Shown: one piece after another, positions 13,156-47,577 of the stretch
How the letters are laid out: the number at the start of each line of letters is the position of its first letter
Position numbering within the stretch: the stretch's first letter is position 1
Assembly: GCA_025435555.1 (NCBI GenBank)
Contig: JAIWWG010000160.1
Span: 1-47,577 of the forward strand
Length of the DNA stretch: 47,577 bases
Direction of reading: 5' to 3'
From: Chytriomyces cf. hyalinus JEL632
Taxonomy: Eukaryota > Chytridiomycota > Chytridiomycetes > Chytridiales > Chytriomycetaceae
Notes under the pieces: model-generated
Told to the model about the DNA's origin: nothing
Databases searched by the model: none
What the model saw: the letters and a program-made list of their open reading frames with translations, nothing else
Made by a program: the position numbers and the translations under genes

Positions 13156-13157
<2 letters not shown>

Positions 13158-13189
13158 GGGGGCTGTAGCAGGAGTCCGTGGGTGAGGAG

Positions 13190-13262: not shown

Positions 13263-13290
13263 CTATCCCAAATCTTTCCTATTTTCTTCA

Positions 13291-14292: not shown

Positions 14293-14315
14293 TTAAGCGT
14301 GGTGTGGGGTGTGTT

Positions 14316-14390
14316 GGGGATTGTCATGAAAATCCTGTGACGTACAAATTTTCGGTACCAAGATAATGGGCAAAATATGCACAGTTTTCT
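14316..14390 (-). promoter_or_regulatory. Conserved upstream block of copy D
   Basis: Aligns by eye with the blocks before C and E: GATTGTCATGAAAATCC, then a TTTTCGG(C/T)(G/A)CC core, then a CAAAATATG...AGTTTTCTT end. The core shared by all three is about 55 nt. One arm of the palindrome has a single change (TTGTCA for TTTTCA). Confidence 0.45.
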
Positions 14391-14422
14391 TCTTTGTCTA
14401 TCCCAAGTCTTGAATTGTTTTA

Positions 14423-15407: not shown

Positions 15408-15468
15408 ATTTTGTGTTTGCATGAGTGAGTGAGTGAGAGGGAGTGAGTATGTGAGGGGTATGTGTACA

Positions 15469-15548
15469 GGGGGATTGTCACGAAAATCCTTTGACTAATA
15501 ATTTTTCGGCGCCGGGAATATTTGCGCCAAAATATGACCAGTTTTCTT
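15469..15548 (-). promoter_or_regulatory. Conserved upstream block of copy E
   Basis: GATTGTCACGAAAATCC followed by TTTTTCGGCGCCGGGAATATT and GCGCCAAAATATG. This is the third example of the element found before C and D; it ends against the 3' end of copy F. Confidence 0.45.
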
Positions 15549-15578
15549 TATACAAAACCGGCACTTGCTTTTTTAGTT

Positions 15579-16577
15579 TCATTGCTCGTTTATTTCCTCT
15601 TCCTTGACGGCCAGCAAGTTGCTGAGAGTTGCGTGCATATCGACAAGGACACACTCGGACCCTTGGTTCGGCGATCGACTTCCGTGTGGCAGCGTGTCCC
15701 TGGTTCGAATCCTATGCAACTCCTCATCTCCCAAAACGCACTTTAACTTGGCATCCGAATCAACCTGTCTTTTAATCCTCTCTTCTTGCAGTTTCCATTT
15801 CAGGCCAGTCAGAATCACTGAAATCACGCTCAACAGCGTGAACGATAACATCCGCAGCGACACCTCAACCCACTCTGCATAGACTAGCAAAATCCCCGCC
15901 ACGACGAGGTACACGGAACTACCTACGGCGCCGTATCGAGCAATAATCAGCATGGAATTGTCAGCGACGGAATGGCCCGTGTCCAAGGGACTATTTGCCC
16001 GCAGAAACAGCGCAAATGATACGAGAAACACAGTGTCCAGTAACACAGTCATGCTCGCTGTTGCAGCACCGTACCACCGTGACATTGAGAAGATGGACGC
16101 GGCTTCCTCATCGCTCGATGCAAACATGGTCGCAATACGGAACAGAATCGCGGGCAAGAACAGCAGCGGCACGGCCTTCACGAACCAATGAAAGCCCTTC
16201 GTAAACGCGGGCGGGAGAGTTAGTTCGAATATTCCCTTTGCGCGATCGTAGCTGTAATTGATGTACGCGATTTCCGTGCCAATGAATCCCACAGTTCGTA
16301 CAGTGAGCAGTATGTTTACCACCATGTCTGTGTCTGTTCCGTAGTCTGTCGCTACGTAGATACCGGTTTCGCAGCTGTACATCAGCAATAGACAAACGAT
16401 CATGACTATCAAGTTGATGTTGAAAGATGTCGAGATCTGAGACCGGCGCTTGCCCGTCTGCGTACAGCAGTGCTTCTCCTGGCAGTAGCTGAGGTACACA
16501 ACGAAGCCAATAAGGTGAACCAGCGTGGCGACTGTCATGAAGATGCAGGCCTGGGTGTAGCTGGAAAGGGCCGTCAT
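15579..16577 (-). CDS. Seven-TM protein, array copy F (intact)
   Basis: The start is placed at MTALSSYTQ (16577), which aligns with the N-termini of the other copies; the frame is open further to 16709 without helical sequence. The product is 332 aa with seven helices. It has the full AYINYSYDRAKGIFE motif after TM3 and SRWYGAATAS at TM5. The tail reads LGDEELHRIRTRDTLPHGSR and ends in a Glu-rich stretch. It pairs with copy G: both have QEKHCCTQTGKRRSQ or QDKHCCAQTGKRRSQ in the first intracellular loop. Expression and ligand cannot be judged from sequence. Confidence 0.8.
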   Translation of the reverse strand: MTALSSYTQACIFMTVATLVHLIGFVVYLSYCQEKHCCTQTGKRRSQISTSFNINLIVMIVCLLLMYSCETGIYVATDYGTDTDMVVNILLTVRTVGFIGTEIAYINYSYDRAKGIFELTLPPAFTKGFHWFVKAVPLLFLPAILFRIATMFASSDEEAASIFSMSRWYGAATASMTVLLDTVFLVSFALFLRANSPLDTGHSVADNSMLIIARYGAVGSSVYLVVAGILLVYAEWVEVSLRMLSFTLLSVISVILTGLKWKLQEERIKRQVDSDAKLKCVLGDEELHRIRTRDTLPHGSRSPNQGSECVLVDMHATLSNLLAVKEEEINEQ

Positions 16578-16821
16578 CAAAAAGTACGCGTTTGAATATG
16601 TTTTTGGAAATCTCATTACGTAATTTATGGGTTTGTTTACTTGGCCTTCCAAGAAAGTCGCCGAGCGAATGCGAACGGATACTGCGGAATTGAGAGGAGC
16701 TGTCTCCATGTTTCTTGTGAAAGGCAGTGTGAAGTCGCGTCCAGAATATCAAAAAGCCAAAAGAGACAAAGCGTTTCCAGCACGGTCAGGCTCACACATG
16801 CAAATTCCGTAATACCGCAAA

Positions 16822-17820
16822 TTATTCTGCTATTTCCACTTCCTTGATGGCCAGCAAGCTGCTGAGAGTGCCGTTTGTATCCACAACAAGGACACTCTCC
16901 GACCCACGTTTCGGCGATCCAACATGTGGCAGCATGTCCCGAGATCGAATCCTATGCAACTCCTCAGACCCCAAAACATTCTCCAACTTGGCTTCAGCAG
17001 CAGCTTGCCTGCTGAGACACTCATTTTGCAGCTTCCATTTCAAGCCAGTCAGAATCACTGAAATCACACTAAGCAGGATAAACGCGAACAATCGAAGCGA
17101 CTCTTCAAACCACTCTGTGTACGCAAGCATTGTCCCCGCCACGACGAGATACACGGAACTTCCAACGGCGCCGTATTGCGCGATGATGACCATAGAATTG
17201 TCAGCTACAGAATGAACCATGTCCAAGGGATTATTTGCGCGCAGAAACAGCACAAACGCAACGAGAAATACAATGTCCAGCAGGACAGTCGCAATCGCTG
17301 TTGCAGCGCCGTACCAACGCGACATTGAGGAAATAGAAACAGCCGCTTCACTGCTCGATGCAAACAGCGGCGCAATGCGGAAAAGAACCGTAGGGAGAAA
17401 CAGGAGCGGCACGGCCTTCACAACCCAATCAAAGCCAGTTGCAAAGGCGGGCAGCAGAGTTCTGTCAAATATCCCTTTTGCGCGATCATAGCTGTAGTTG
17501 ATGTACGCAATTTCAGTGGCAATGAAGCCGATAGTTCTTCCAGTCATGAGGATATTCTCCACCATCTCAGTGTTTGTTTCGAAGTCTCTTGCAATGTAGA
17601 TACTGGTTTCACAACTGTAAATCAGCAACAGAAACGCGATCATGATGATCAAGTTGATGTTGAACGATGTTGCGAACTGAGACCGGCGCTTGCCCGTCTG
17701 CGCACAGCAGTGCTTGTCTTGGCAGAAGGAGAGATAGACAATGAAGCCGACAAGGTGCGCCAGCGTGCCGACTGTCATGAAGATGCAGACACTGCTGTAG
17801 GTCGAAACGGCTACCATCAA
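16822..17820 (-). CDS. Seven-TM protein, array copy G (intact)
   Basis: A single exon of 332 aa (one residue shorter if the second Met is used). It is the closest relative of copy F over the whole length: seven helices, AYINYSYDRAKGIFDR after TM3, SRWYGAATAI at TM5, DNSMVIIAQYGAVGSSVYL at TM6 and tail signature LGSEELHRIRSRDMLPH. It is the rightmost complete member of the array. The F/G pair and the A/B pair keep the D-R motif that C/D/E have lost. Confidence 0.8.
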   Translation of the reverse strand: MMVAVSTYSSVCIFMTVGTLAHLVGFIVYLSFCQDKHCCAQTGKRRSQFATSFNINLIIMIAFLLLIYSCETSIYIARDFETNTEMVENILMTGRTIGFIATEIAYINYSYDRAKGIFDRTLLPAFATGFDWVVKAVPLLFLPTVLFRIAPLFASSSEAAVSISSMSRWYGAATAIATVLLDIVFLVAFVLFLRANNPLDMVHSVADNSMVIIAQYGAVGSSVYLVVAGTMLAYTEWFEESLRLFAFILLSVISVILTGLKWKLQNECLSRQAAAEAKLENVLGSEELHRIRSRDMLPHVGSPKRGSESVLVVDTNGTLSSLLAIKEVEIAE

Positions 17821-18029
17821 AAGTACGATATGAGTTCAAGATTTTGGGGATCAGTTTTGTCACTGGAAATCTTTTCGCGTAATTTAAACGGTTACTTTTA
17901 TTTTTGCTTCATGAAATTCGGCGGGAACATTGATGTAGTCTCATTTGAGTGATTTTGTACTGGATAATTTGAACGTCAAAAGCCAAGAGAAAGCGAGAGA
18001 GCGAGAGAGAGAGAAACAGATTTCCGAAT

Positions 18030-18362: not shown

Positions 18363-19327
18363 TCAAAAACTCCGCACAATCAACCGCGTCAACCCCACCA
18401 ACACAAACGCAATCTCACTACAATCCAACAAATTCGAATGCAAATACAAATACTCCAACTTGAAACACTGCCCAATTTCCACCGGAACTTTTCCGCTAAA
18501 CTGATTCCCCGCCAAATTCAACTCTCGCAACGTTGCTTGGAGTTCTAAAAGCGCGTACGGTACGGGTCCATTCATTTGGTTCCCTGAAAGATCCAATACT
18601 TCTAGAGTTTTGATTTCGCAGATTTGTGTGGGGAAACTTCCTGTCAGTTTGTTGCCCATCAGATTCAAGATTCGCAAGTTTTGCAAGGTTCGAAATTCGG
18701 AAGGAAGTTGGCCGGATAAACAATTCCGCGCAAGGATGAGGGATTCGAGGTTATGCAAGTTTCCCAGTTCTGCTGGAATATCTCCAAATAGCCTGCAACT
18801 GCTCAAATCCAAATGTTTTAGAAATCTTAGGCATCCAAGCGCTTTCGGGATCCGACTTCGGACCATGAGTCGATGTGCGCATGAGATGGATTCAACCCGC
18901 GTCAACAACTGTGTCGCAACTACATGCGCAAAATTGTTTGACGCGGTGAACAAAAGTGATTCAAACTCGTCAGGCCATGTGAGAGTTGTTTTTTGCACTT
19001 GTTTTTGTTTGGGGCAAATGAATCGGGACAAGTTTAACTGCGCGAAATGTTTGCTGGAGAGGATGTTGTTGAGGGTTCGTGATAGTCTTTGGAGGCGATT
19101 TGAGTCTCTAGGATGGATCCAGCTGCAGATTTGCTCGATAATTTCGCAGGGGAAGTCGTTGATGGAGACTGGGGTATCTGTGGGGAAGAAGAAGTGTCAG
19201 AGTTCAGATCCGCGACGGGCCATTCCCGTAGCATACATACAGATGGGTCTTCGAATCGACGTGGTATCTTGGATGGCTGCCATGGCTGTAGTGGAGGGAT
19301 GGGTTTAGAATCTGTTTTTGGATGCAT
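18363..19327 (-). CDS. F-box/LRR protein (two exons)
   Basis: Exons 19327-19237 and 19177-18363 join across a 59-nt intron (GTATGC...CCCACAG) to 301 aa. After a polar N-terminus, an F-box-like segment reads INDFPCEIIEQICSWIHP. An alpha-helical linker with a KQKQ-rich turn follows. Five or so plant-type LRRs come next: LGCLRFLKHLDLSSCRLFGD, LGNLHNLESLILARNCLSGQ and so on. The C-terminal cap ends LTRLIVRSF. The intron phase restores the F-box frame, which supports the model; without it the LRR frame would start downstream at 19031 and lack the F-box. Probable substrate receptor of an SCF E3 ligase, target unknown. No frame breaks. Confidence 0.7.
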
Positions 19328-25169: not shown

Positions 25170-25612
25170 ACTTGCAAGATGCAGCAGCAGCAAAAACCTT
25201 AATTTAGTTCATGTAAAGGGGAATTGGTGTGTTTTGTGGGTGGGTTTTCAGGAATATCTCTGAAGAGCGGTGGTGGAGTTAACTTGTGTTTGGGACTCGT
25301 TGGTTTTTTTCGTTCCTTGCGAAGGGGGAGATCCAGTGCGAAACGAAATACACAGTCCGCCCTGCCCATTTTGACATTGTTTATTCTGTCGTTCATCATA
25401 CATGACTGCTGCTTTTCGAATAGGTCATGCGCATGCAGAAGAACTTGCGAACACGTGATCTGACTGCTCCTGATTGTCGCAAACCATCATCCATCCAACT
25501 TAGGGCCTCAGTCCAATCGACAGAAACCAAGCGGGCATGAGTGCGTGTTAAGCGGTGAGACTCGGACTCAAGATCCGCATTTTCCATGTCAAATTAATTG
25601 CCTGCCTCCCAA
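25170..25612. other. Intergenic region, no gene seen
   Basis: 3' flank of eS30 and 5' flank of the F-box/LRR gene. Short frames only. Confidence 0.4.
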
Positions 25613-26501
25613 ATGGACGCAGCCATGGCGGACATCAACATTCTTCCCGTCGAACTCCTGATCCGCATTTTCCGTTGGATCCCGGTCCGAAACGTGCTCA
25701 AATTCCGACGGCTATGCAAAGCAGTGAACGAGAGCCTTCTGACTTGCCCTGCTCAACATGGAACTTCCGCCACTTTTGACACGCGTAAAAGCAAAATGTA
25801 CCTGTGGCTCAAGCTGCCCGAACTCTACCAGTCGGCATTTGCGAGCAAGTATCTGGCGAATACTGAGGAAATTGAAGCTGCGGCTGCGGGACCTTTTCCA
25901 GCAAGTATTCTGCAGTTAACGCATCTGAAAAGTGTGTATCTGGCGCGGTCTAACTTTACAGGCCGGCTTCCAGATGGGATTGGAGCGCTGACAAACTTGA
26001 CATCGCTGTTTCTGGACAGTAACCGATTCCAGGGAACCATTCCAATAAGCTTCAACAACTTGGTCGCTCTGCAGGCGCTCAGCTTGTTGATTGGATATAA
26101 TCCGATATACAGCCCAATACCCAAGGAACTGTGGAGCTTGGTCAATTTGGTGAAACTAGAAATGTGTCAGTGCGGTTTGACTGGATCTCTTGCTGGAGTT
26201 GGGGCATTATCGCATCTCGAAGAATTGGATGCGTGTCACAATGACGGAGGGGATACCTCCAAACGAACCACCTCAAATAAGCCGGTTAAAGTCATTGCAC
26301 TTGATTGGGAATCCGCGTTTGCAGGGCCAGTTGTGGGATTTCCAAAGGATGAATTCTTTCAAAGCGCTGTGCATGGATGAAGCAGTGTTTTCGAGTTGCA
26401 CGATTCGGGGATGCCCGCGCGTCAGTGGTGTAACGCTTATCATCCCGAGGAGATGGGTGAAGATTGGAATTCAGATTGGTCGTCAGATTCGTGAGTTTTA
26501 A
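25613..26501 (+). CDS. F-box/LRR protein, unit 1 (frame break near 26245)
   Basis: Starts at MDAAMADINILPVELLIR. The F-box covers residues 8-45 (LPVELLIRIFRWIPVRNVLK). A helical linker and then four to five plant-type LRRs follow (LTHLKSVYLARSNFTGRLPD, ALTNLTSLFLDSNRFQGTIP). After LEELDACHND the frame shifts: compared with the relic at 27.8 kb, about 5 nt are missing. The correct frame then gives GIPPNEPPQISRLKSLHLIG, DFQRMNSFKALCMDEAV and so on, to a stop at 26501. Read without correction, it ends at 26380 after 256 aa with a foreign tail. It forms a unit with the F-box gene at 26595, 94 nt downstream on the same strand. Confidence 0.65.
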
Positions 26502-30072: not shown

Positions 30073-30187
30073 TTCGAATCAAGCGGCAGTGTTCGGGGGT
30101 TCAGTGTCGATGCCACGAAGGATTGAGAATAAATCACGGCGGTGGGTTAATCCAAGACATAAGATGTCCAAGTCTGAAGATGGAGAG
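30073..30187 (+). repeat. Copied fragment of the RNA-repair gene (source 45608-45741)
   Basis: About 115 nt aligning by eye to 45608-45741, antisense to the nucleotidyltransferase exon, with few mismatches and one internal deletion of about 20 nt. Matching stretches include TTCGAATCAAGCGGCAGTGT and CATAAGATGTCCAAGTCTGA. Orientation relative to the + strand is the same as at the source. Confidence 0.85.
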
Positions 30188-30312
30188 TTGCAATTCAAAT
30201 GCACTTCACTTTCACGGCGCACACGTGTCGCAAATCACATGCTTCGAGTTCAAACCACAACGGTTGATTTTTATTAACTGTTACGACATTGAAGAATTCT
30301 GCAACTGCATTT

Positions 30313-32145
30313 TTACCGCACATCAATTGAAAGCACAAACTGAGATAATTGTTTCAAATCACTGTCAACCTTTACAGCAACATTTCCTTCTTTTGTAACA
30401 AGATTCTGCTCTCGGTAACCACTGAAGCGTGTGTGTGGAACAACAAAATACAGTTTCGACATTCCACTATCCTTCATAATTTTCTTCAGCTCAACCATTT
30501 TCACCCCGTGATTTCGCGAAACAGTCATTTGAAATAGACCAACCGAAGGAATCAAAGAATCGATGCATGGATAGTTTTTTCGAGCGGCTGTATAGAGAAC
30601 ATTGATATCCGTACAATCCTTTACATCTTCGAAGGTCTGTTTCAGGCGTGCGGGTAGGACCAAATCAACGCTGGCAGCAGTAGGGTCCTTAAGTGAGCGA
30701 ATTTTGAATGTCCCTCCTTTGGATAGTTGGCGATGAGCAAAGGATTCGAACAAATTCCCACGAAGAGAAGAATACAGCGTTTCACAATCAGGGGCAAGCA
30801 AAAACGTGTGTAGTTTGCTTTCCTCCTGGGCGATGAAAACTTTGAGAGCTTCTTCCACAATATATTCTGCATGTATAAAGTTAGATACATATTATGCTTG
30901 ATTGAAAAACTCGACGTACCCGAAGCAAATTTAAGGGAATAATCATGATAATCATCGGAGACTGCGTAATGGATTATCAAGTGACTAATTTCGTCTTCTT
31001 TTGACAAGTACCCATCTGCCATAAGTTTGAACTCGTCAATATTCAACCGCCCAAGTGCTCGCTCAATTGTTCCACGTAGTCTGTCGGGTTTTTCGAACAC
31101 AAAGCGTGCGATTCCACCAATCAAATTGAAACGTTCTTCGACTACAGCGGGGGATAAATCATACAAAGCACGAGCTGCAAGCAGTTCTTCCAAATCCCAA
31201 ACAGGAAGATAGAAGAGAGGGGCCGTTTTTGTGAACTTGATAAACTGTTTGTAGTGCTTTCGAGCTGGCGGGGCAACGACAACAGTAATGGCACCAACGG
31301 CGGACGGACCATTAGGAAGTGCATCCGTGAGATACCAGGTGGCAGGAGAATCCAAATGTTGACGGAGAGAAGCGTAATTTGTCGTCTTAAAACAGCGCTC
31401 GCTATCGAAAACGTATATCCAAGGTGCATCCTTGGCTCGATGCAAAACAATAGTCTTCACGTTATCCATCTTGCGCAACCTCCACATGACATAAAACAAA
31501 AATACGCTCTTCCCAATCCCAGGAATTCCAGTGATTGCAAACCCGCTCGTTTCCCTTTCGTCCATCGAATTAATTCCATAAAGTGCCTTCTCCCAAATCA
31601 ATTGAAACATAAGAGGATAGCATTTCCTTATTAAGAACTGTTTCGGGATTTCTTGGCAGAAAGTTGGAGCAGGAATGAACATCAGGCAATCGTCAACAGG
31701 AGCCACACTCGAGAGAGAATTCCAAAAATCAGACATATTGGTTGATGCATAGATATCCATTGCAGTTAATGATAGTAAAGAAGTGGCTGGTGCTGAATAG
31801 ACACCATTAAATTCAATATCGAAAGCAAATCAGGCACCATTCACCTGCGCCGGTCAGTCCAGGTCGGTATGATTCCCTCTTATCCAGCGCCCCCCTCGCC
31901 TCCTTCCGCGCCGCCCCCCTCTCCTTCAGCGCCGCCCTGGCCTCCTTCCGCGCCGCCCCCCTCTCCTTCAGCGCCGCCCTGGCCTCCTTCAGCGCCGCAT
32001 CCCTAGTTTTGTATGCTGGCTCTCCACCCGTCTTCACCGTCCAGTCTTCCAAATTCTTCACAGCTTTCGAAACATCCCTCCTCGCCTCTTCGACGGCAGC
32101 TTCGGCTTCGGCCACGGCTCGTTGTGCGATGGCAAGGTCGTCCAT
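30313..32145 (-). CDS. CR-type (Crinkler/RHS-like) effector: coiled coil, P-loop NTPase, nuclease-like C-terminus
   Basis: Three exons, 32145-31845, 31792-30920 and 30866-30313, joined by 52- and 53-nt introns whose phases match; 575 aa. Residues 1-100 are an Ala/Arg/Glu coiled coil with a duplicated 14-residue unit. Residues about 112-390 are a P-loop NTPase: Walker A GIPGIGKS at 189-196, then APWIYVFDSE, TWYLTDALPNGP and WDLEELLAARAL, typical of Crinkler and trypanosome RHS proteins. The last 180 residues (LRGNLFESFAHRQLSKGG, then YREQNL near the end) match the restriction-endonuclease-fold module of the CR superfamily. These proteins act as secreted or intracellular effectors in oomycetes, chytrids and mycorrhizal fungi. 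No classical signal peptide is seen. All three exons are open, so it looks functional. Confidence 0.8.
31898..31999 (-). repeat. 42-bp tandem repeat in the coiled-coil header
   Basis: Two identical 42-bp units (31898-31939 and 31940-31981) plus a partial third, coding for ALKERGAARKEARA on the minus strand. 42 is a multiple of 3, so copy number can change while the frame is kept. Confidence 0.9.
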
Positions 32146-32478: not shown

Positions 32479-34594
32479 TCACCAGCAAGTACCGTCTTCG
32501 GATGGTCGGGATTCTGTTTCTGTCTCCCAGCGAAACGCAATCACCGGCCTGTCCGTCGACTGCTTTCGAAAACGTTCCAGTAAATCCCCCTCAAAACGAT
32601 TTCCACTCAGATCCAGCCGCTTCAAATCCCTGCAACCACCAAGATCAACCCGCTCAACTGATTGTTGCTCAAATCGAGCGTCTTGATTTGTTTCATGCTT
32701 TCGAACGAATCACAAGGAAGAGTACCGCTGAAGCAGTTGTTGCTCAAATCAGAGCGTTCGATGGATTGATAACGTAGCATGGAAGCAGGAAGTGGACCCG
32801 ATAACTGATTGTGGCTCAAGTTCAAACTTTTCAGATATTTTGGGTCTCCCGTGTCAGTTGGCAGCTGACCAGAAAAACGATTGTGGTCCAGGTGCAGGCT
32901 TTGAACATACTGCCATTCTCTAAATTTCGGTAGTGGACCCGACATTCGATTATGATTCAGTTTTAGCGTGTTCAAACGCCGCGGCAAAAAGCTTTCTGGC
33001 ACGGAACCAGTTAACTGATTATGGCTGAGATCCAACGTGTTCAGCATGGTCAAGGCTCCAACATCTCGCTGCAATGAGCCGACAAAGCTGTTGTTGTTCA
33101 ATCTAAGCGTGGAGATATTGGAAAGCATGAAAATTCCGGATGGAATCTCTCCAGTGAGTTAGTTGTGACTGAGATCCAATGTCCGCAAATGAAGAAGGCT
33201 TGGTACAGAGTCTGGAATTTCACCATACAATTGGTTGTGACTCAGGTTGAGCACTATGAGAAAAGTCAAACGCCCAATTTCCATCGGCAACCGGCCGCTG
33301 AGCTTGTTGTATTGCAGCGACAGATCCGTGAGGCTCACAAGCGAGGTGATTGAATCGGGAATTGCGCCGCATAATTCGTTTCTGTCAAGATACAGGAGTT
33401 CCAATTTGGATAGCCCCCCAATCTCAGTTGGGATTGGCCCTTGGAGGTTATTTCCTTGCAAGTTGAGGTACTCGAGGTTTGTAAGCGACATGACGTAGTC
33501 AGGAAGTCTCCATGAGAGACGGTTTTGAGAAAGGTCCAGCTCTGACATTAACAATGAAACTTCATCTTTTCCGCCGGCTCGTTCGAGCTGATTCCATTTC
33601 AGTGACTGCGAAACAAGGATGCCGATGGATGTCGTGAAGTGATTCCAGTGATGCGGTCGGAATCAAGAGGAACAATTGAGGAAACTGGTGGGCTCTTCGA
33701 GTTTCGATCAAATTTCGCGCCCTGAAGCAATGGCAGCCGGAATATCGATTCTGGAATAGCTCCAGAAAATCGATTCTGCTCGCAATGCAGCGTCTTCAGT
33801 TGTATGCATCGACCAATGGATTCTGGTATTGGTCCTTCGAAATGGTTGCTGCTCAGCGACAAACTCTGTAGCTTGGTCATTCTGCCAAACATATCTGGCA
33901 GCTTGCCTGAAAGCTCGTTATTTTGCAGGCGTAAGTCCACCAAGTTGACCAAGTTGCCAAAACTCGCAGGAATGCAGCCACTGAGCCTGGTATTAGACAT
34001 ATCCAGTACTTCCAGGTTAACGAGGTTTCCTAAACTGTCAGGCATCGTGCCTTCAAGATTCGTGTCACTAAAGTTCAAATTCTTCAAGGTGACGAGATTG
34101 CCCAACTCCGACGGGATTGGACCGGTCACGGTCTGGCCCATCAAATTTGCGCCTTGAGTACAGACGAGCCCCCAAAATCCAAGGATCAATTGTTTCAGGC
34201 AACCGACCGTGTTTGGCAGTGGACCTGTCAGATGGAAAGTTTTCATGGGGCCGTCGACTTCCGAAGGAAACCATTCCAAGATAGAAGTCGCATTGCTTGA
34301 TTTTCTCGGGTTTATTGGGACGACTTTGAGAGTCGTCAAGGGGTACTGATGGAATACTTCGTATTCAAATGCTCGAGCCGTTTCTGTTAGGGCTCGTCGC
34401 AAGAAGTCCTTCCCAAATGACGCAGGTGTAACGAAACAAAAGATATCCTCAGGACTGTCTGCGTTGGATTCGCGAAAATGTCCCATGTGAACCAGGCCAA
34501 TCAGACGCGCTTGGAGTTTGTTGGGAATCTGCAGCATTTTCATGGGTCCCAAATTTAATAAAATGTGGTCCTGTTTATTTATGAGTGCGGCCAC
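32479..34594 (-). pseudogene. LRR protein lacking most of its F-box, three lesions
   Basis: Homolog of the F-box/LRR gene at 41290. It begins MAALINKQD, and the F-box is mostly deleted: LQIPNKLQA runs straight into RLIGLVHMGH. The conserved CFVTPASFGKDFLRRAL block and about eight plant-type LRRs follow. Near 33625 one base is missing. The frame continues with RLPDYVMSLTNLEYLNLQGN and more LRRs. At 33159-33161 a CAA glutamine codon of the SHNQL repeat is TAA. Beyond it LRRs go on (NISTLRLNNNSFVG and so on). Another shift near 32640 leads to a tail with DLSGNRFEGDL and VIAFRWE, to a stop at 32479. The in-frame nonsense and the F-box loss make it a pseudogene even if the shifts are errors. Confidence 0.75.
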
Positions 34595-34935
34595 TGGTCA
34601 GTTTCGCGATTGCGATGGATTCATACTGACGTTGTAAGTGGACTTGATATCATTGGCAGATTGTGCGCGCGCAAGTTTCAAACTCTTCAGCTTTGATCTC
34701 GCGTGGCACAGTTGTGACAAATAAGAATGTGCGTGATTTCAATTCCACGCTGAGCCGGAGATAAAACCGCTTCGACGGCGCGTGAAATGTCCGTTTGATT
34801 TACTCCGAATTCTGACTGTGTTTGAAAAAGATTGTTGAAAAGATTTGAACCAGATTGCGACAGTGCCGAGCCCATTTTCCCGAAACTCCTTATTTTCAGA
34901 CCTCGCACAAGAAGTACCAAGCCATACACGGACGT
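34595..34935. other. Spacer between LRR pseudogene and LRR fragment
   Basis: No gene. The 50 nt flanking 34594 (AATAAAATGTGGTCCTGTTT, then GAGTGCGGCCACT) match the 5' flank of the inverted relic at 43.7 kb, showing the two were duplicated together. Confidence 0.5.
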
Positions 34936-35475: not shown

Positions 35476-35676
35476 GAAAATAGGTAGGATCGATCCCCGC
35501 CAAAAGGCATGGCCGCAACAGCACGTGACTTTATTCGCTGTTAAATATTAAGTGCAGGGTATATTTCCCCGTCCAGTTTGCTTGAAATAAATTTTTCACG
35601 AGGACACAAACACGGACAACGCCTTCACCAATGAAATTCACGGAAGCATCTGCTGACACAGTCGCGATATTATTGA

Positions 35677-38338
35677 TCAGTTCACGCTGGCACTGAACGC
35701 GCGTTTGCACTCGTCACAAAACGCTTTCGCAGAAGCGGAACTTTCAAATTCCATCACTATCGAATACACAGTTGAGTCATACAATCTTCTCCTCCCCATA
35801 TTAGGTGAAGATTCCAGAGAAGGGGGAGGCAGCCGAGAGATGGTGAAGATATTTGCAACACAGGTCACTTGCGATGCTGCATCGATATAAAAACACGCCG
35901 CGTTCTTTGCTGAATTGAAAGAGAACCACTCCCTGGACCTGAATCGGTGCATTTCTGCCTGCCCCGCACACCAATTGCTCCAAGAGTTTCTTCCAGTCCT
36001 GATTTTGTAAATGCAATGATCCACAGTCTGAAAACTCATATCAGCGCATATTCATTTCCATCTTCAAAAATATGCGCTTTAAAACTCACATTACAAAGAA
36101 GCTTGCGATGGTATGTTATCGTTGGGGCGAGTATCGCCAAATCGACACTTTGCACTGCGTTCCCAATCTTTGACCGCACCATCGATGCATCTTTGACAGC
36201 TGAGATTCGAGAACGCACCAATGAAGCCACACTACAAGAGCGACGGGAATACGCGTCTCTGTACAGTTCCGAAATGGATGACTTGAACAGCAGAACGAGA
36301 CACAGCGTCACATTCGTCCACGTCAAAAAGCAAAATTTGACATCATGCAAGAATAGATAGGATGTCGCCGCATCTTCCCGAAGGACCACGAATCCAAATA
36401 CAGTGAATAAAAACATGATCGCCATGGGCGTGGATTGATTATACTTCTCCCATCGAACTCGCGTCAACAATGCGATACACGGCACAAGCATAAGTAAGAT
36501 GCCGATGCACAAGTAGTATGCCGCGGATAAATACACTGAGGGCAGAGCGATACAAGACAAGTAAACCTGGTTCGCGCTTTTGTTTTCGAAAGGTTTAAAC
36601 GTTCCCTTTGAGATCCAGCCAGCAAGGAAAATAAACTCCACAGCAATAGTGATCGCGTTTGCTGCTCGTATGCGACGCGCCAAAAGTGCTGGTTTCCTCA
36701 CGCGTTTCTTGCCAAACATCAAAATCATGAGAGCGCTCCTGAAGACCATTGCCGACATAATCATTGAAAATCCAAGAAGAAACATCGATATCCGCAACTT
36801 GCAAAACAATTTGTTGAATTCTCCAAGATAGAATAGCAACGATGCGTATGATACAACAGCCCCCATCAAGGAAATCGTTGCTTCCGGCAAAGAGAGAGCC
36901 TTGACGGCCGGATGGTCTTTCGATCTCCACAATATAAAGCTTAGGAAGAGTGCAAAGATGATTCCCAATATGATAAGGACTGTGATTACAGTCCCGACTC
37001 CCTTTGCGGCTGAAAGGAAGGCAATGATCCGCTTTTCTGCCCCATCGCCTGGAAACTCTGCGACCCCTGTCAGAATATGTACAAGAGGTGCGTCCAACAA
37101 TACCTCTCCAAAATCCGGACGTCGTATTCCGGTCTGCAGAGAACGCAGTCATGTAAACATCTGTGTGTCCAAATGGTACGCATTCATACTCATTCCCAGT
37201 CATGGCGCAGGCGTTCCAAGGACTGAAAGAAGCAATTAAATATCTGCTGGAGCGATAAAGTGGAATGATTTCACCCTTCTTTTGCCAATCCCCTTGCTCA
37301 GTCAAGATAAATGGATCAGTGATCATTCCATGGTATCCCATGTTTTTGAATAACGAATAGTTCATGAGGTGATTTAGATTCTTTGTTGAAAGATCTAGAA
37401 TGGAACTGTCGGGCAGCAGCTGTGAAGCCAAGTTACTTCTGGGATACATTTTTACATGCAACGAAAAACAAACCAAATTCCATCCAGAATCCATGTTCAT
37501 GGCGCAGTCATAGAAACTGTCCAAGGCATTGTAGATCACGTCATTGTCGGTGAAGTTGTATCCAGAGAGTCTGATGAGTTCTTGCCTCCCTTCCTGAAAA
37601 GTCGGCCGACTTGTATCCGAATTTGCGCATGAAACAAGAACGAATCCTCGAATAAGCTCAAAATATCTTGAACCGTATACTGGAGTTGCATATTATTTGA
37701 ATCGCATCAGTTCCGGTACTTGAAGAAAAATGAGCAGACTATCGTTTCTCACACAGTGTCGCGTTCTCAAAAGGCATTGGGTAGTTGGTACCGATGTACA
37801 CATGATTTTTTTCGACCATTTCTCTGCTCCCCATACCGTGGATAAAAGCTGCGGTGAAATCGTTCGAACCAGTAACAATAATGTATCTGTGAGAGTTAGA
37901 CCGAGCTGATGATTGCCGGAGAGATTCCACAATATAGTCAAGCATAAACGCGTCTGAACCGTCTTCCATCCCGAACTCGCAAAGAATCAAAATATTCTGT
38001 CGCTGGAGTGACTTTCGGATATCCAGAAAAGCTGCGTAAAAAGCACTGAGATACCGCGCGAAAAAGAAAATAGAGATGAATTCAATTTAACTGTTATAGC
38101 CCAAGTCGTTGCTTCTTTGATATACGATCGCTACTCTTCCGACTTTCATGTACTTTAACACTTGGTATATGCTGCTCCCCGCCCCTATTCATTGATCCAT
38201 TCAGTGGTCAGAATGACAGCAGCAAGAAAACACACCAGAGCCGCCGTACGTTCGCCACAAGTACGGGTAATTGTTTTTGTTTGAATAACGCGGCGAGCCG
38301 ATCGCTCCCGAGCAGTAAGGGATTTGCGCATTCGAGAG
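35677..38338 (-). CDS. Class C (GABA-B/mGlu-like) GPCR, 5'-truncated, with PH-like tail
   Basis: Exons 38338-38236, 38184-38092, 38031-37753, 37679-37180 and 37133-36036. Four introns of 46-73 nt join in phase, strong support for the model. The ligand-binding Venus-flytrap (ANF receptor) domain starts mid-domain at AQIPYCSGAIGSPRYSNK. It continues with LKYMKVGRVAIVYQRSND, YIIVTGSND, and later GYHGMITDPFILTEQGDW. The seven-TM domain of class C follows (HPAVKALSLPEATISLMG, ISMFLLGFSMIMSAMVFRS). The cytosolic tail continues after a 1-nt break near 36036 as a PH-like segment ending SIVMEFESSASAKAFCDECK at 35677. The first part of the flytrap domain and the signal peptide are missing: the frame closes at TGA 38341-38339. 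Either an upstream exon was not recognised or the gene lost its 5' end. Confidence 0.7.
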
Positions 38339-40159: not shown

Positions 40160-40319
40160 ATGCACAGGAGCAGGTTATTTCGAGAATAAATGGCGAGTCC
40201 GATGCAAAGAACCCGGGAAGGTTCCAGCGGCCTACAGTGCACGCGCGAGTGAATCTGACTAGTCTGCAAACCAATCAAAAAGTCGCGCTTAATGGCCCAT
40301 TAAAAAACCGTCTGAAGAG

Positions 40320-41027
40320 TTGATTTTGTCGGAAAATGCCGTGACTGGTACAATCCCTTTGGAGGTGGGCAACCTCGTCAGCTTGAAGTACCTGAATCTT
40401 AGTGACACGCGACTTGTAGGCACAATACCAGACAGTTTTGGGAACTTGGTCAATCTTGAGAGGCTGAAGATATTCAGCGCCAAGCTGACTGGCCCTATTC
40501 CTGCAAGTTTCGGGAACTTGGTCAACTTGGTCGAGCTGATTCTGCGTAGAAGCAAGTTTTCAGGCACGGTGCCCGATATTTTTGGAGGAATGACCAAGCT
40601 GCAAACTTTGTCCTTGTCCGAAAACCATTTCGAAGGGCCGGTGCCAGAATCCATTGGCCAATGCATGAAACTGATAAACCTTCACTGCGATCAGAATGAA
40701 TTTTCAGGTTCCATCTCTGAAGTGATATTCCGATTGCCGCTACTTCAGCAATTGTGCTTCAAGAACAATTTGATAATCTGGGAATCTTGTATCAGTGCTG
40801 AATCTGTCGAAATGGGAGACGCGCAGCCAACTTTAATTGTGGATCCTGACGCTGATCGTATCACGGGTATAATCTCTTTGCCTCCGACAGCATTGCTTGA
40901 TCTCCAGTCACTAAATGCGGCGTACAATCAACTAGGAAACAGCTTTGCAGGAAATCATACGGTTTTGCCGTCAATGTCGAGTTTGCATTTTTCTTGCAAC
41001 CGACTGCCTGGGAGAGTTCCTACCTAC
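40320..41027 (+). pseudogene. LRR fragment without F-box, fused to antisense kinase relic
   Basis: Open through about eight LRRs (GNLVSLKYLNLSDTRLVGTI, GGMTKLQTLSLSENHFEGPV, IGQCMKLINLHCDQNEFSG), closely matching the middle of the genes at 41290 and 34594. It ends at LPGRVPTYQ, where the coding match stops. Before 40320 a few degraded LRR-like residues (NLTSLQTNQKVALNGPL) can be seen. Both the F-box and the C-terminal LRRs are missing, and the frame runs on to 41117 only through antisense kinase sequence. Confidence 0.65.
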
Positions 41028-41100
41028 CAGTTTGAGGTCTCTGTGGACAATGCCCATGAAATGCATGTAGCTGAGACCTGTGTTGATAATAAAATCAGCA
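41025..41100 (-). pseudogene. Protein kinase exon relic (catalytic loop)
   Basis: On the minus strand: GLSYMHFMGIVHRDLK, the subdomain VIb catalytic loop, preceded by an acceptor-like CAACACAG and followed by a donor-like GTAGGT. Too short to be a gene; a single kinase exon stranded antisense at the end of an LRR fragment. Confidence 0.55.
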
Positions 41101-41162
41101 TGATCGTTGATAAATGAGAATGTCCTCAAGCCTTTTCTAATTTGGACTGTGTTTGATCGGTA

Positions 41163-41243: not shown

Positions 41244-41289
41244 AACAGTCGTTAAATGTGAAACATAAAAAAAGAAAAAACGGAGACAC

Positions 41290-43047
41290 ATGCACCTGCT
41301 CGATTTGCCCGTCGAAGTACAAGTTCACATCTTTCTGCAGCTTAATCCATTCAATATTGCTCAGTACCGGCGTGTCTGCCGCTCCTTCAACAACCTGTTG
41401 ACTGGTCCTCCGTTCTCGCATCTGATTGGCCTGATTCACATTGGACACATCCCCCATCCAATTTCGAGCGATCTTGCAGAAGTTTTCTGTTTCGTTACGC
41501 CTGCATCGTTTGGGAAGGACTACTTGAGACGAGTCCTGGCAGAAGTGTTCAAGTACTCTCGATATCACCAGTGCACTTTGATGACTCCGGATGATTTCAA
41601 AGTATTTCTTCTCAAGCCAAGAAACGAGAGTTCCCTGCTGGAATGTTTGCCGTCGCAAGTCCATCGTCGGAGTGAACCCTTTCACATGGTTGGTCCACTG
41701 CCAAGCACTATCGGCTGCCTGAAGCAACTGACATCCTTGGAGTTGAAAAACCACAAGTTGTCTGGCCCCATCCCGCGCAGTTTGGGTGATCTAGCAATGT
41801 TAACGAATCTGAATTTGAAGGGCAATCATATGACTGGCCCTGTTCTAGCGGAACTGTGCAATCTTGTCAACTTGAGGATTCTGAATCTCGCAGGCACGCT
41901 TCTTGACGAAACAATACCTGACACGATTGGAAACCTTGTCAACTTGGATGTGCTGAATCTTTCTCGTGCCAGGCTGACTGGCTTCATCCCTGTGAGTATT
42001 GGGAACTTGGTCAACTTGGTCAAGTTGAATCTACGGAATAACCAACTTTCAGGGTTGCCGGATACGTTTGGAGGGATGACCAAGCTGCAAAGTTTGGATG
42101 TACGTGACTGCAATATGGAAGGGCCAATACCGACATCCATTGGTCAATGCATGCAGTTGACAACATTTTTCTGCCAAAGGAATAAGTTCAAGGGTTCTGT
42201 CCACGAATCGATTCTTCGACTGCCATTGCTTCGAAACTTGAGACTTGACAGCAATTTCTTAACCTGGGAAAGTTCGTCACTTTGCAATGTCAGCGCCCAG
42301 CCAGTCCGAATGGAAACCGCGGCAAGTGGCGTTAATCGTGACTGTGATCGTGAATCTGGAACAACCATCAGTTCGAATCAACTCAAAGGGGACAGTTTAG
42401 CCGGTGCAACAGATGGACCTGCGCTCTTCCTGGATCTTTCTCGAAATAAACTCTCGGGAGGGATTCCACACTTCATCACCACACTCACAAACCTGCAAGA
42501 GCTTACGTTGAGTGATAGTAAGCTCAAAGGCCCACTACCAACTGAAATCGGAAGGTTAACAAAATTGGAGAACCTGAAACTTGACCACAACCAAATCTCT
42601 GGCGAAATTCCTGAGTCCATATCGGGTCTTGTTGCGTTAAAGTCGCTAAATCTTAGCCTGAACGTTCTGATTGGCAGAATTCAAAATTCAATTTCGTCAC
42701 TTGTGAATCTCACTCATCTGTCTTTCAATCACAACAAGCTCAGCGGTCCCTTGCCGACGGACATTGGACTGCTTACTTCCCTCGTAAGTTTGGACCTCAG
42801 TCACAACCAGTTATGTGGTGAAATTCCAGAATCATTTGGAAACTTTACGCGTTTACAATCGTTGAGTCTCAGTCACAACTGCTTCTCCGGTGAAATTCCA
42901 GAATCCTTTGGAAACTTTACGCGTTTACAATCGTTGAGTCTCAGTCACAACTGCTTCTCCGGTGAAATTCCAAAGTCAATTGGAAACCTTGTTCATTTGT
43001 GGATATTGGATCTCAGTCATAACCAGCTCTCCGGCGAAATTCCATGA
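41290..43047 (+). CDS. F-box/LRR protein, largest open member (585 aa)
   Basis: The F-box at residues 1-42 (LLDLPVEVQVHIFLQLNPFN, then YRRVCRSFNNLL) is followed by IGLIHIGHI and the conserved CFVTPASFGKDYLRRVL block shared with two relics here. About 18 plant-type LRRs (LxxLxLSHNxLSGEIPxS) then run to the end. It stops abruptly at LSGEIP with no C-terminal cap; the sequence beyond is an inverted, decayed paralog, so the original 3' end was probably lost at that junction. Two adjacent repeats are identical in protein. Likely SCF substrate receptor with an elongated solenoid. Its 5' flank is shared with the CR effector gene. Confidence 0.78.
   Translation: MHLLDLPVEVQVHIFLQLNPFNIAQYRRVCRSFNNLLTGPPFSHLIGLIHIGHIPHPISSDLAEVFCFVTPASFGKDYLRRVLAEVFKYSRYHQCTLMTPDDFKVFLLKPRNESSLLECLPSQVHRRSEPFHMVGPLPSTIGCLKQLTSLELKNHKLSGPIPRSLGDLAMLTNLNLKGNHMTGPVLAELCNLVNLRILNLAGTLLDETIPDTIGNLVNLDVLNLSRARLTGFIPVSIGNLVNLVKLNLRNNQLSGLPDTFGGMTKLQSLDVRDCNMEGPIPTSIGQCMQLTTFFCQRNKFKGSVHESILRLPLLRNLRLDSNFLTWESSSLCNVSAQPVRMETAASGVNRDCDRESGTTISSNQLKGDSLAGATDGPALFLDLSRNKLSGGIPHFITTLTNLQELTLSDSKLKGPLPTEIGRLTKLENLKLDHNQISGEIPESISGLVALKSLNLSLNVLIGRIQNSISSLVNLTHLSFNHNKLSGPLPTDIGLLTSLVSLDLSHNQLCGEIPESFGNFTRLQSLSLSHNCFSGEIPESFGNFTRLQSLSLSHNCFSGEIPKSIGNLVHLWILDLSHNQLSGEIP
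42817..42960 (+). repeat. 72-bp tandem duplication of one LRR
   Basis: Units 42817-42888 and 42889-42960 differ at one base (CATTTGG against CCTTTGG) and encode the same 24 residues. An exact one-LRR insertion. Confidence 0.95.
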
Positions 43048-43049
43048 GC

Positions 43050-43726
43050 ATGCTTCGCCGCAAGTTCAACTTCTTCAACTTGACGAGGTTTCCAAGGACA
43101 GAGACGACAGATCCAGTCAGGTTTTTAAACTCCAAGTCCAGCACTGTAAATTAAACCATGTCGCATATTCTGGTTGGAATGCTTTGCGGAAGTGCCAACA
43201 CAGCCAGGTGACGCATGCCATCCATTGTATCTGGCAGCGGGCCCACAAATCGAATCGCTTTTCTGCCACGAGTTATGTTCTTTCTGCCACGATTTCTGAT
43301 CGAAGGATACTTTGCAAGCATTGCGACTTTGTTGTGTGGATTCGCCAAAATGTTTTAACGTGTGGCAACCGGAAACGATTGAACATGATTTGCGAGAAAG
43401 CCATGGCCGGCACTCGAGCGCACCGCAGCGTGGAGTCGCGTAAAGAATTCGTTGCGACAGGCCCGCGTGCTGGCGAAGCAGAACATATCGACTGAGCCAA
43501 GAAGGGTGGACTGGAGCAACAGCTGCAGACTCCCAACAAACTCCAAGCGCAAATCTTTCACCTGCTGGACTCGTTCGAAGCTGTCAAGTACCGCCGTGTG
43601 CGTCTGTCGCCCAACGACTCGCTGTCGAGCGCTTGCCTCGCATGCTGTTGCACAGTCATGTGTGCCAAATTTAATAAAATGTTGTCTTGTTTCTTTTTGG
43701 TCTTGTTTATTTTTGAGTGCGGCCAC
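43050..43726 (-). pseudogene. Inverted F-box/LRR relic
   Basis: Minus strand from MAALKNKQD (43726), as in the pseudogene at 34594. A decayed F-box zone and a trace of the conserved block (MFCFASTRACRNEFFTRL) come first. Then in other frames RFVGPLPDTMDGMRHLAVLA, VLDLEFKNLTGSVVSVLGNL and VKLKKLNLRRS, ending against the 3' end of the 41290 gene. Several stops and frame changes. Confidence 0.65.
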
Positions 43727-44088
43727 TTCGCGCGCACGAGTGATTCAATGCCACGCCTTAAAGATTGGCAGCAGACGCGACGTTTGATTTCAAATTCCCG
43801 CCAGACTTTCTTCGAAGCGTTCCAGTATTCCCTTTACGGAGCAGCTTTATTTTATTTCGTGCTTGTTATTATCCTGCATTGGACACTCGAACCTCACTTC
43901 AGAAACTCTTTATTCAAACAGCGCTATGTCAGATCTATTGTCGGACATCTCACCATCCAACACGATCATTTGGACAGCAGAAATACAGTGGATGTGGAGC
44001 CTGGAGGAACGTGCGAATCCTTCTTGGCTCCAAAAAAAAGTGCTTCTTTGAAAGAATCTATTCCAAATACAGCTCTCTGCCAGGAAAT
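43727..44088. other. Spacer between LRR relic and RNA-repair gene
   Basis: The first 60 nt carry the duplicated LRR 5' flank (TTATTTTTGAGTGCGGCCAC). The open frame covering the rest on the + strand runs on antisense to the RNA-repair gene and has no family features, so I do not call it. Confidence 0.4.
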
Positions 44089-47000
44089 TCAACTGAAAAT
44101 ACAGTCCGACTTGGACTTTCGATCCCACACAACCTCCACAACACTCTCCCCACTCTGCCCACTCACAACAACACGCTTAAAATACCATACTCGATGAAAC
44201 GGAATCCAATCTTCTCCTTGCTGATCCGCTTTCCTCGCTGCAAAGTCCGTGAACGGAATCTCTTGAATTCCCGTGAACCGGTCCATGTATCCAATCACAA
44301 ACGTGTCTGGGTCAAAGCGGTTGTCCCACACGATTCGGTTAAAAACGTCCTCGGAGCTGCGGAGTTTGGATTTTGATGAGATTGTTGAGGAGATGCCGGT
44401 GGCGGCTACAAGGTCACGTTCAAACACGCGTTGTGGTGCAGCTGGTTCGGGGTGTGGCATCTCAACAGGTGCAGATGTGGGATCGTACACTGGTGCAGGA
44501 ACTAAATTCGATACTGCATCTTTCGCAACACGCAATGCCTGAACCCACATTCCTACAGGAAATTCCTCCGCCATGACTTGTGCCTCAAAGTTGACGAGAA
44601 GGTTATCCAGCATTGCGAGCGCTGACTTTTGTTCCGATGGAGACGTTGGAAATGTTTCTCCTTTCGAAAGTCCCAGGATAAAGTTTGCCGTCGTTTCAGG
44701 GTCGTTTTCGGGTTGAACCAGCCATTGTGACCATGGTCGAACTGCAATGGACGGACATCTTTGATGGATGTGGATGAGGAGGGTGATGAATTGGCGTTCG
44801 ACTGTCGCTTTGAGTTTTTGGAGTTGTTGGAAACTGATTCCGGAAGTTTGAATGTGGATGAAGGAGGAGTGTCTGGAAAAACCAAACCGTTATGAGTTAC
44901 AGTTCAATAGAAATTCATGGATAACACTCACTGTTCGAGAATGGGATATTCCTGGCAGAGCTTCTCCAAAAAGTCTTCTCCAAATTCACTTCCCTGCGCC
45001 TCTACTTCACAAACCAAATCGTACCCACGCTTAAGTTCCTGAACCCACACATTCCGACTCACAGTCACAACATTTCGACAAATATTGATGCTCCCAGAAG
45101 GCGCAACCACAGTCATCCGATCTCTCTCCTCTCGATGCACACTTGTTCCACGAACCTTAGAATCCCATTCCACAGGCACATCCCAATCATGAGCACTCCA
45201 AACTCTAAAAAATTCCGCAACAAGCCCTCCAGCCGTAACATCCCCACTCAAACCACCACCACGCTTAAACAACCCTGCCAACAAAACAATCAAAGCATGA
45301 GAAGGCGGAAACCCTAATTTCACAAGATCCATCCCTTTCACACGCGCCCAAACTTTCAACACGCGTGCGGCGAGGCGGAACGCGCTTTTGCAAGTGTCAG
45401 AGACCGCATGTTGGATAAGCTGCGCGTCCGTGTAACTCGCGAGGAGTGCACGTGTTTGTGCGGGGAACACTGTTTCTGCGATAGCTGCGTCCAAGTTAAA
45501 TGCGATTCGAGAATGTGTTGCTGGGATTGGGAACGTTGCGTATTGAACATCCACATGGATTCCGTGAATCGATAATTCAAGGATTGGGATCTTGGCGTCA
45601 GCCACAATTCGAATCAAGCGGCAGTGTTCTGGGAATGGGAATGGATCTCGTTCTTCAGTGTCGGTGCCACGAAGGATTGAGAATAAATCTCGGCGGTGGA
45701 TTAATCCCAGGCATAAGATGTCCAAGTCTGAAGATGGAGAGTCTGTTCCGAGGGTAAATGAACCAACTGGGGTCATGTAAAAGGGGGAAGGGTAGAATGC
45801 TTTGGCGAAAATGTCTTGGAGAGCAGACAAGGCTGCGACACGGGTCGCAAACGATGCTTTTGTGGGAAGCGCATTTTGAGATAGTAAGAACTTTGAAACG
45901 GACGCGTCTGTAGTTCAAAATATTAGAATCACAAAAGTCAAGCATTTCAGAGAATCAACTCACCCGCTGCACAGTCTTTCTCCACCTCCTCATACGAACG
46001 CGCAATCTGAACTCTACCAACATCCTCACCAGCTACATTCTCACATCCCCGGCTCAACAAGCATGCAACCCCATAATGATCCGACACATCCTCCTTCAAC
46101 CCGCGCCCAACAATCCACGACTTTCCAACATCCCAATCCTTCAACCGAACAAGCACACGATCCATCCGCAATACCACACCACGTCTCGAAACCTGTGCAG
46201 CCAACGAATTCCTTATAGAATTATACGTCACCCCATCAGCACCGGCAGGCTGTGTGCAAGACCATGCGTCTTGAAACCCAGCCTCTACAAACGCAGCTTC
46301 AAGCGCGCTTTTGGATTCCATATTGAAATCGCCCATCACAATTGCATCGCGTGGACCCAAAACGTCAACAAGCGTCCGAAACTGGTTACATCGAAGACGA
46401 GACTTGTCACCAGCGTAGTCACTCGTCAAATGAACCACTGCGACTTGCAATTCACCAAAACTAGCAACAATAGCCTTTTTGCCAATTGAAAGTTGAACAA
46501 TTTGATGCGAAAACGGGTATTTCGACAAGAGAAGCAGGTTCGTTGGGACTTGATCCATGGTTAGGGCTGAAATAAAGTAGTGCGACTGGATCGACGCGTC
46601 CTCCAGTGCAAGGTTCAAAAATGTGCTGTTGACTTCTTGCAGGGCAATCAGATCAGGTCCTTCCTGCTCCAGAATCCAAAGCAACGATTGAAACCGGGTG
46701 TCAGCATCGTAATTTGAAGGATGTGAGGGGTCGTTTAGAATATTGTATGTGAGGAGGGACATGTCCGAAATGTGAGTAATGTCCGGATTTGTTGTATCTG
46801 ATGAACTTTCCCAAGCATTGGAAGCCCGATTGTAAGCGCATGATTGAAGCGTGGCATTCGCAATAACGGGAGTCTCAATTTTTGAAGTGGCAACAACAAC
46901 AGTTGCTGCAACCAGACTGACTTCCTTGACACTCAAATCCTTCAACAGCGGCAACGAAATCGCACACGAATACGCCTCCATCTTCCCAACCTTCTTGGAC

Positions 47001-47577
47001 ATGATTGCAACAGCATCCACACACACCCTCAACGGGAACGCATCTGTCCCCAACAACTCTTTCTGAATCAATCGTTGCAACGGACCCGGGTCCCCAGCCG
47101 CCATCGTAGCCACAGTCAAATGCGGTCGAAATTCATGCCGGTCCGGTCGAACATTCATTCTCGATGGCAGAGATGCGTCCAGTTGTCGTTTCAGGTGTTC
47201 CAATTCGATGCAAGTTTCGGAGGGTTCGAGAATGATTGTGGAGGATCCTCCTCGATGCGAGAAGACAGAGACAGTGTCAAAGAGAAGTTCGATGGATGTG
47301 CATTGTTGAGTGATGGGTGTGAATGCGTCTTGCAGTTGTTTGAGGGTGGCTTGGGAGACGGGTAGTTGAGGTGGAGGGATCAACGTGACATGGGGAGGCC
47401 TGCGTTTTTAACTTTGAATAAACTGGATATTGTGACCAAAAATCGCAAGGAATACACAAACCATCTTGGAGCAGCCTTGTCGTACTTTTGCCGAAACTGT
47501 TGAATTGTATGCATGGTGGATCCTGGAGTTTCTATAGTCTCGGTTGGGGCAAGGACGACGACGCAGAGGGCACCGAG
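44089..47577 (-). CDS. RNA end-repair/processing fusion: 2H phosphoesterase, EEP nuclease, NTase, MJ1316 domain (5' end outside window)
   Basis: Exons 47577-47462, 47399-45964, 45907-44932 and 44872-44089, with introns of 56-62 nt in matching phases; at least 1103 aa. Numbered from the window edge: residues about 1-190 are a 2H (LigT-like) phosphoesterase with PPHVTL (40-45) and RPHLTVA (130-136). Residues about 252-490 are an endonuclease/exonuclease/phosphatase fold: TYNILND, ALQEVNS, VMGDFNME and SDHYGV. Residues about 540-870 are a poly(A)-polymerase-type nucleotidyltransferase: GSFTLGTDSPSSDLDIL with Asp 578 and 580, third Asp 636 in IHVDVQYA. Residues 1018-1103 are an MJ1316 (DUF504) domain: FNRIVWDNRFDPDTFVIGY, then PFHRVWYFKR. 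All catalytic motifs are intact. 2H enzymes act on 2',3'-cyclic or 2'-5' ends and MJ1316 is proposed to bind cyclic RNA ends, so repair or remodelling of damaged RNA 3' ends is the best reading. Confidence 0.85.

Follow-up and report, generated by a model that had tools for sequence, protein, structure and literature searches.

A chytrid protein joining 2H, TDP2-like EEP, poly(A)-polymerase-type and MJ1316 domains, and its bacterial relatives: candidate RNA end-healing enzymes

The animal protein LENG9 consists of a CCCH zinc finger, an MJ1316 domain and a 2H domain, and TDP2 (tyrosyl-DNA phosphodiesterase 2) repairs DNA by means of a single catalytic domain. The 2016 article of Burroughs and Aravind in Nucleic Acids Research (NAR, gkw722), to which PMC6514570 refers for MJ1316 fusions, probably treats a fungal four-domain family with MJ1316. 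In this report we describe a member of that kind, encoded at the end of a contig of the chytrid Chytriomyces cf. hyalinus JEL632 (GenBank JAIWWG010000160.1, here termed C69), whose product combines a 2H phosphoesterase, an EEP domain, a nucleotidyltransferase (NTase) of the poly(A) polymerase type and an MJ1316 domain. The whole contig, 47577 bp long, is the window analysed here. Judged from its sequence and relatives, the window protein is probably an RNA end-healing enzyme. MJ1316 is described in a passage of PMC6514570, which cites earlier work, as recognising RNA cyclic phosphate ends and as occurring in diverse fusions to RNA-repair domains across eukaryotes. Since such fusions are already in print (PMC6514570), no first description is claimed; our literature search turned up no title or abstract describing the four-domain fusion.

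Gene model, domains and active sites

Read on the minus strand from 47577 to 44089, four exons splice into a single frame of 1103 amino acids (aa), which is closed by a stop codon. The three introns have GT-AG borders and measure 62 nt (47400..47461, within the 2H domain), 56 nt (45908..45963) and 59 nt (44873..44931). Their splicing is supported by the continuity of the predicted protein with other chytrid homologs, and the closest homologs come from Chytriomyces confervae and C. hyalinus. The frame is still open at 47577, where the contig stops, and the homologs P0001 and P0002 have N-termini that lie 9 residues further out; the window gene (44089..47577) is therefore slightly truncated and lacks about 9 of its first codons.

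A preliminary description of this DNA had proposed that one polypeptide unites four domains, and the spliced frame bears this out. The 2H phosphoesterase (PF13563, aa 18-197, 46925..47526, spanning intron 1), the EEP domain (PF03372, aa 251-489, 46049..46765), the poly(A) polymerase central domain with the region after it (PF04928, aa 692-984, 44449..45386, spanning intron 3) and the MJ1316 domain (PF04457, aa 1009-1099, 44104..44376) all exceed their curated Pfam cut-offs, MJ1316 with 70.2 bits against 26.3 (2.4e-19), and the two domains on whose placement the proposal had been made to depend, 2H and MJ1316, are both located by hidden Markov models. The NTase palm (aa 515-659, 45483..45973, spanning intron 2) stays under its Pfam cut-off, yet reaches 2e-43 with our own profile of fungal homologs; our domain profiles were built from an alignment that contains the window protein. 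All five of these profiles match the window protein, in the order 2H-EEP-NTase-PAP central-MJ1316 (PAP, poly(A) polymerase). In the predicted structure of an ortholog the NTase region has a poly(A) polymerase fold, and the fold match runs to about ortholog residue 950; as matches to the EEP and polymerase parts fill the fold lists, these lists are no test of MJ1316 or 2H. Compared alone with the PDB by phmmer, the MJ1316 domain gave E values of 0.39 or worse and hence no solved relative by sequence.

The claim that all active sites are intact likewise stood up. We aligned the window protein with 45 homologs, of which 38 come from named fungi and 7 from records without a source name, and followed 17 positions which we presume, from the known sites of these domain families, to be catalytic. 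Thirteen of them are invariant in 46/46 proteins, and the window residues are in place. Both 2H histidines, H42 and H132, occur in every protein; the accompanying T44 is T in 7 and N in 39 of the 46, and T134 is T in 43 and S in 3, and the window protein carries two H-x-T/S motifs. Within the EEP set (N258, E294, H362, D396, N398, D452, D479, H480) seven of the eight positions are kept in 46/46 and N398 in 45/46. The palm displays the canonical features of poly(A) polymerases, namely the G-S motif (G566-S567), D-x-D (D578, D580; D578 kept in 45/46) and a third carboxylate (D637), and the central domain is present as well.

Profile comparison places the EEP domain with TDP2 and not with the CCR4/ANGEL group. 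TDP2 scores 2e-21, followed by an unassigned EEP protein (5e-10) and nocturnin (9e-7). A CCR4/ANGEL-type EEP was an attractive candidate, as ANGEL2 reportedly is a cyclic phosphatase, and was rejected, with ANGEL2 (0.0017) and CNOT6L (0.0034) far behind. TDP2 is the closest solved relative both by sequence profile and, in the ortholog model, by structure; the window EEP domain alone had no phmmer match in the PDB at 0.1. The earlier proposal that this domain trims RNA is left unsupported by its proximity to TDP2, and the domain may be a phosphatase or a 5'-end phosphodiesterase rather than an exonuclease. One alternative takes the likeness to TDP2 further: the protein would act on RNA that is broken or linked to protein, and would do so at both ends, with 2H and MJ1316 treating the 3' end and the EEP domain clearing a 5' blocking group, for instance a tyrosyl or other adduct. 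We regard this as improbable, as other EEP folds have structure scores nearly as high (neutral sphingomyelinase 23.4, nocturnin 22.4), likeness to a subfamily is no proof of a shared substrate, and none of the adduct kind is known in this case. For the end-healing interpretation, the TDP2-like assignment sharpens the question of which end and which adduct the EEP domain treats.

The fungal family, its bacterial relatives and a ligase-kinase gene pair

The window protein has homologs along its full length (P0004, 46% identity at 100% coverage; P0005, 42% at 99%; P0008, 34% at 100%), and a protein from the ascomycete branch, P0025, is 24% identical over 85% of the window protein. A search with P0025 yielded 512 homologs; among the best 120 of these Sordariomycetes dominate, and many bear the names polynucleotide adenylyltransferase or poly(A) polymerase. 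Several fungal relatives are publicly named polynucleotide adenylyltransferase or nuclear poly(A) polymerase 1. Among 156 proteins (155 retrieved homologs, many of them records without a name, plus the window protein) the order 2H-EEP-NTase-PAPc-MJ1316 (PAPc, the poly(A) polymerase central domain) is found in 124, the window protein and 123 others; the named ones are fungi and range from chytrids to Sordariomycetes. On these comparisons the window gene genuinely belongs to a family that is widespread in fungi. Another 25 of the 156 have the order MJ1316-EEP-2H-NTase-PAPc, the named ones being Myxococcota, and 7 miss one or more of the domains. That one domain set exists in two orders speaks for a functional connection among its members. 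The deposited C. confervae model P0001, counted among the 124, lacks most of the palm and has a different C-terminus, which may be a gene-prediction error.

A scan of prokaryotes, with one genome per species, retained 80 loci of 164 relatives, 20 from Myxococcota and 60 from Actinomycetota. At all 80 loci an open reading frame (ORF) carries MJ1316 ahead of EEP. The fungal palm profile does not match 61 of the 82 multi-domain bacterial ORFs; the palm motif itself, searched with a relaxed pattern and in another stretch, was found at 75/80 loci (15/80 with a stricter pattern). Two of the five loci without it look frame-broken (L030, L065), one has G-A for G-S (L031), and two have D-x-N for D-x-D (L050, L077).

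Clustering of the flanking ORFs singled out the gene directly upstream of the bacterial relatives. In two examples compared with Pfam it encodes an RNA_ligase domain (PF09414) and AAA_33, a kinase-type P-loop domain, and the AAA_33 part has a far sub-threshold NCBIfam match to polynucleotide kinase-phosphatase. According to a profile built from 44 ORFs of the same 80 loci, 53/80 loci have this ligase-kinase gene as the immediate upstream neighbour, in every case with the same orientation and either whole or cut by a contig end; these are 53 of the 60 loci in Actinomycetota and none of the 20 in Myxococcota. From its stop codon to the first MJ1316-matched residue the median distance is -1 bp (range -23 to 50). 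A search of 148 Actinomycetes genomes, independent of the 80 loci except for the seed genome, served as a control for the selection of loci: four genomes contain the ligase-kinase (1e-20), precisely these four also contain MJ1316, and the two genes are neighbours every time. One of the four is the seed genome; after its removal the two genes still coincide in the same 3 of 147 genomes, for which the probability is about 2e-6 on the assumption, not fulfilled in reality, that genomes are independent. The adjacency in Actinomycetota and the exact co-occurrence support RNA end healing, and this bacterial gene pair is the strongest functional evidence for it.

The gene pair also bears on a different fate of the RNA, in which the 3' cyclic phosphate is stripped and the added tail marks the broken molecule for an exonuclease and not for a ligase. 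Such tailing for decay is unlikely in our estimate, since the pairing and the co-occurrence with a ligase-kinase fit sealing better. At the seven Actinomycetota loci without the ligase-kinase, one neighbouring ORF was compared at each of six (all except L077), and none is a ligase; the same holds for two ORFs at each of two Myxococcota loci. One of the seven, L058, has a separate EEP ORF upstream. The two Streptomyces loci with D-x-N, L050 and L077, are likewise among those without the upstream ligase-kinase, and both losses may reflect joint decay.

Ligases, gene copies and neighbours in the chytrid genome

Sealing enzymes exist in the chytrid; linkage of any of their genes to that of the window protein was not seen. 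The genome holds two PF09414 genes, on contigs C175 and C32, both different from that of the window gene; a ligase-kinase directly upstream of the latter was not found within C69, whose end cuts the gene. On C175 a run of ORFs carries 2H-SAK, PTP-SAK, AAA_33 and RNA_ligase domains, for which C. confervae, Physocladia, Entophlyctis, Rhizoclosmatium and other fungi have homologs that form one protein. Over its ligase part this gene is hit by the profile of the bacterial ligase-kinase at 1.4e-11, and its three ORFs have no Pfam match to MJ1316, EEP or nucleotidyltransferase. In addition, the assembly contains a match to RtcB (C164) and one to RNA_lig_T4_1 (PF09511, C189), which we take to be the Trl1-type family. 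A search for PF08302 (Trl1) had no match in the chytrid and none in the control genomes either, and the absence of Trl1 is therefore not established.

Several observations weigh against an end-healing role. Strict co-occurrence in fungi between the four-domain protein and the 2H-phosphatase-kinase-ligase was not seen among the matches listed, and none of the fungal ligase matches (88 proteins) is named from Sordariomycetes, the group that dominates the best 120 of the 512 homologs. The ligase partnership is not universal, since it is adjacent at 0/20 Myxococcota loci; in the 20 Myxococcota genomes as a whole, 16 had no ligase-kinase match at 1e-5 and 4 weak matches only. All 20 possess RtcB, an enzyme that seals cyclic-phosphate ends without such healing. 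A tree computed for 53 sequences, from four domains joined end to end and without the palm, puts the fungal and bacterial proteins into separate clades with support of 0.955 and 0.752, respectively, and function may therefore differ between them; the tree was midpoint-rooted and thus gives no direction for any transfer. Two proteins of the bacterial order, P0034 and P0035, keep the first 2H histidine and have lost the second 2H motif, and the polymerase part of P0014 matches a CBASS cyclase model, at 18.5 of 200 bits, far below threshold. As a separate observation, the 20 myxobacterial genomes contain 4 to 8 RtcB-matching stretches each, some of which are pieces of one gene.

The chytrid assembly (37.8 Mb, 242 contigs) has four MJ1316 matches, on C69, C155, C168 and C99. 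The C155 copy is 99% identical to the window gene and likewise cut by its contig end; a rough dN/dS between the two is 0.26, without an in-frame stop, and we count this value in favour of the end-healing reading. The C168 copy is partial, with its 5' half missing and two in-frame stops, and the C99 copy has one in-frame stop and is missing its N-terminal portion and a piece from the middle. Their rough dN/dS values against the window copy (0.21 and 0.27, respectively) come from simple counting and are hard to interpret for copies so decayed. C46, considered as a second intact locus, was rejected, as it appears to be a small degenerate remnant. On C155 the 99% identical copy of window positions 43041-47415 is followed by a copy of 35485-36526 in inverted orientation; what distinguishes C69 from C155 near 43041 is thus either an inversion or an assembly join. 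In the window, a remnant of an NTase exon (aa ~570-604) at 30094-30198 on the minus strand adjoins a possible CR effector gene (30316-31829, minus strand). On C168 a stretch resembling this effector adjoins the halved four-domain gene, and a similar NTase remnant is present on C56; these remnants and effector-like stretches may stem from one shared old duplication.

The preliminary description had also connected the gene with neighbouring effector and defence genes. Twenty long window ORFs were compared with Pfam, and those with matches are mostly leucine-rich-repeat (LRR) proteins, some with an F-box. The F-box cut-off is reached by the ORFs at 41269-43044, 25598-26377 and 5964-6692; at 18366-19196 the F-box remains below it, and the ORFs at 33602-34597 and 40293-41114 have LRRs only. 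The Pfam-matched ORF nearest to the window gene encodes an F-box and LRR protein. The two ORFs at 30316-31829, which we take to be the CR effector of that description, are some 12 kb distant, and nothing in Pfam matches them above a cut-off (best ART, 0.034); one of them shows a P-loop-like stretch by eye. In PADLOC, at 0.001, the ortholog P0004, two bacterial proteins of the set and two ligase ORFs had no match.

On this evidence the effector or defence link is weak, and it is highly improbable that the protein is a fungal defence or counter-effector enzyme, selected to undo RNA damage by effectors or toxins. In its favour are the connection that the literature draws between RNA repair and biological conflict (PMC6514570), the several rearranged copies of the region, and the partial copy on C168 that adjoins the effector-like stretch. 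Against this, we read the F-box and LRR neighbours as ubiquitin-ligase adaptors, PADLOC had no match, and the family occurs in many fungi. Elsewhere in the window, adjacent minus-strand ORFs at 9529-17835 share similar hydrophobic starts and look by eye like a tandem family of membrane proteins, three of which were compared and had no Pfam match; the minus-strand ORF at 36039-37148 has a 7tm_3 class G-protein-coupled receptor domain (9.7e-19).

Proposed mechanism and comparison with known systems

What remains of the proposed role in RNA end repair is its core, carried by the four domains, the intact sites and the ligase-kinase neighbour in Actinomycetota; trimming and the effector or defence link drop out. 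A 2',3'-cyclic phosphate is the usual product of metal-independent RNases. In the scheme that we infer, from the catalytic steps and their substrates to their order and the cooperation of the fungal protein with any ligase, MJ1316 would recruit RNA with such a 3' end, and the 2H domain would open the cyclic phosphate. The TDP2-like EEP domain may then remove the remaining phosphoryl group or another end adduct to leave a clean end, to whose 3'-OH the poly(A)-polymerase-type module would add nucleotides, either replacing lost ones or tagging the end. Finally, a separate RNA ligase-kinase could join the pieces, encoded by the neighbouring gene at most Actinomycetota loci and by one or more unlinked ligase genes in the chytrid.

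If this reading is correct, a large fungal set (512 homologs) consists of RNA end-healing enzymes, and the two-gene arrangement of Actinomycetota offers a tractable way to test it. A far bolder version, to which we give little credence, holds that one four-activity RNA end healer was assembled in fungi and again in bacteria, each time with a different domain order, and that it serves both ends: MJ1316 and 2H would handle the 3' cyclic phosphate, the TDP2-like domain would clear blocked 5' ends, including protein adducts, and the poly(A)-polymerase module would restore the 3' end before a partner ligase seals. Were it true, it would provide a way to mend RNA breaks that are linked to protein or chemically blocked.

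Compared with described systems, the window protein resembles LENG9 in holding MJ1316 and 2H in one protein; the animal protein has a zinc finger in addition and lacks both EEP and nucleotidyltransferase. TDP2 is the closest solved relative of the EEP domain, which here is one part of a four-domain protein. The 2H-phosphatase-kinase-RNA ligase protein of C175, with Swiss Army Knife domains of Pfam, shares the multi-domain design for RNA end healing with a 2H part, yet brings its own ligase and kinase-type domain. The bacterial MJ1316-EEP-2H-NTase proteins of Myxococcota and Actinomycetota have the four-part set in one polypeptide; unlike the window protein, they show the permuted order, belong to the separate clade and, at most Actinomycetota loci, adjoin a ligase-kinase gene. 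The fungal 2H-EEP-PAP-MJ1316 proteins have the same domains in the same order as the window protein, and differ from it in a first 2H motif that reads H-x-N in 39 of the 46 aligned proteins, whereas that of the window protein is H-x-T.
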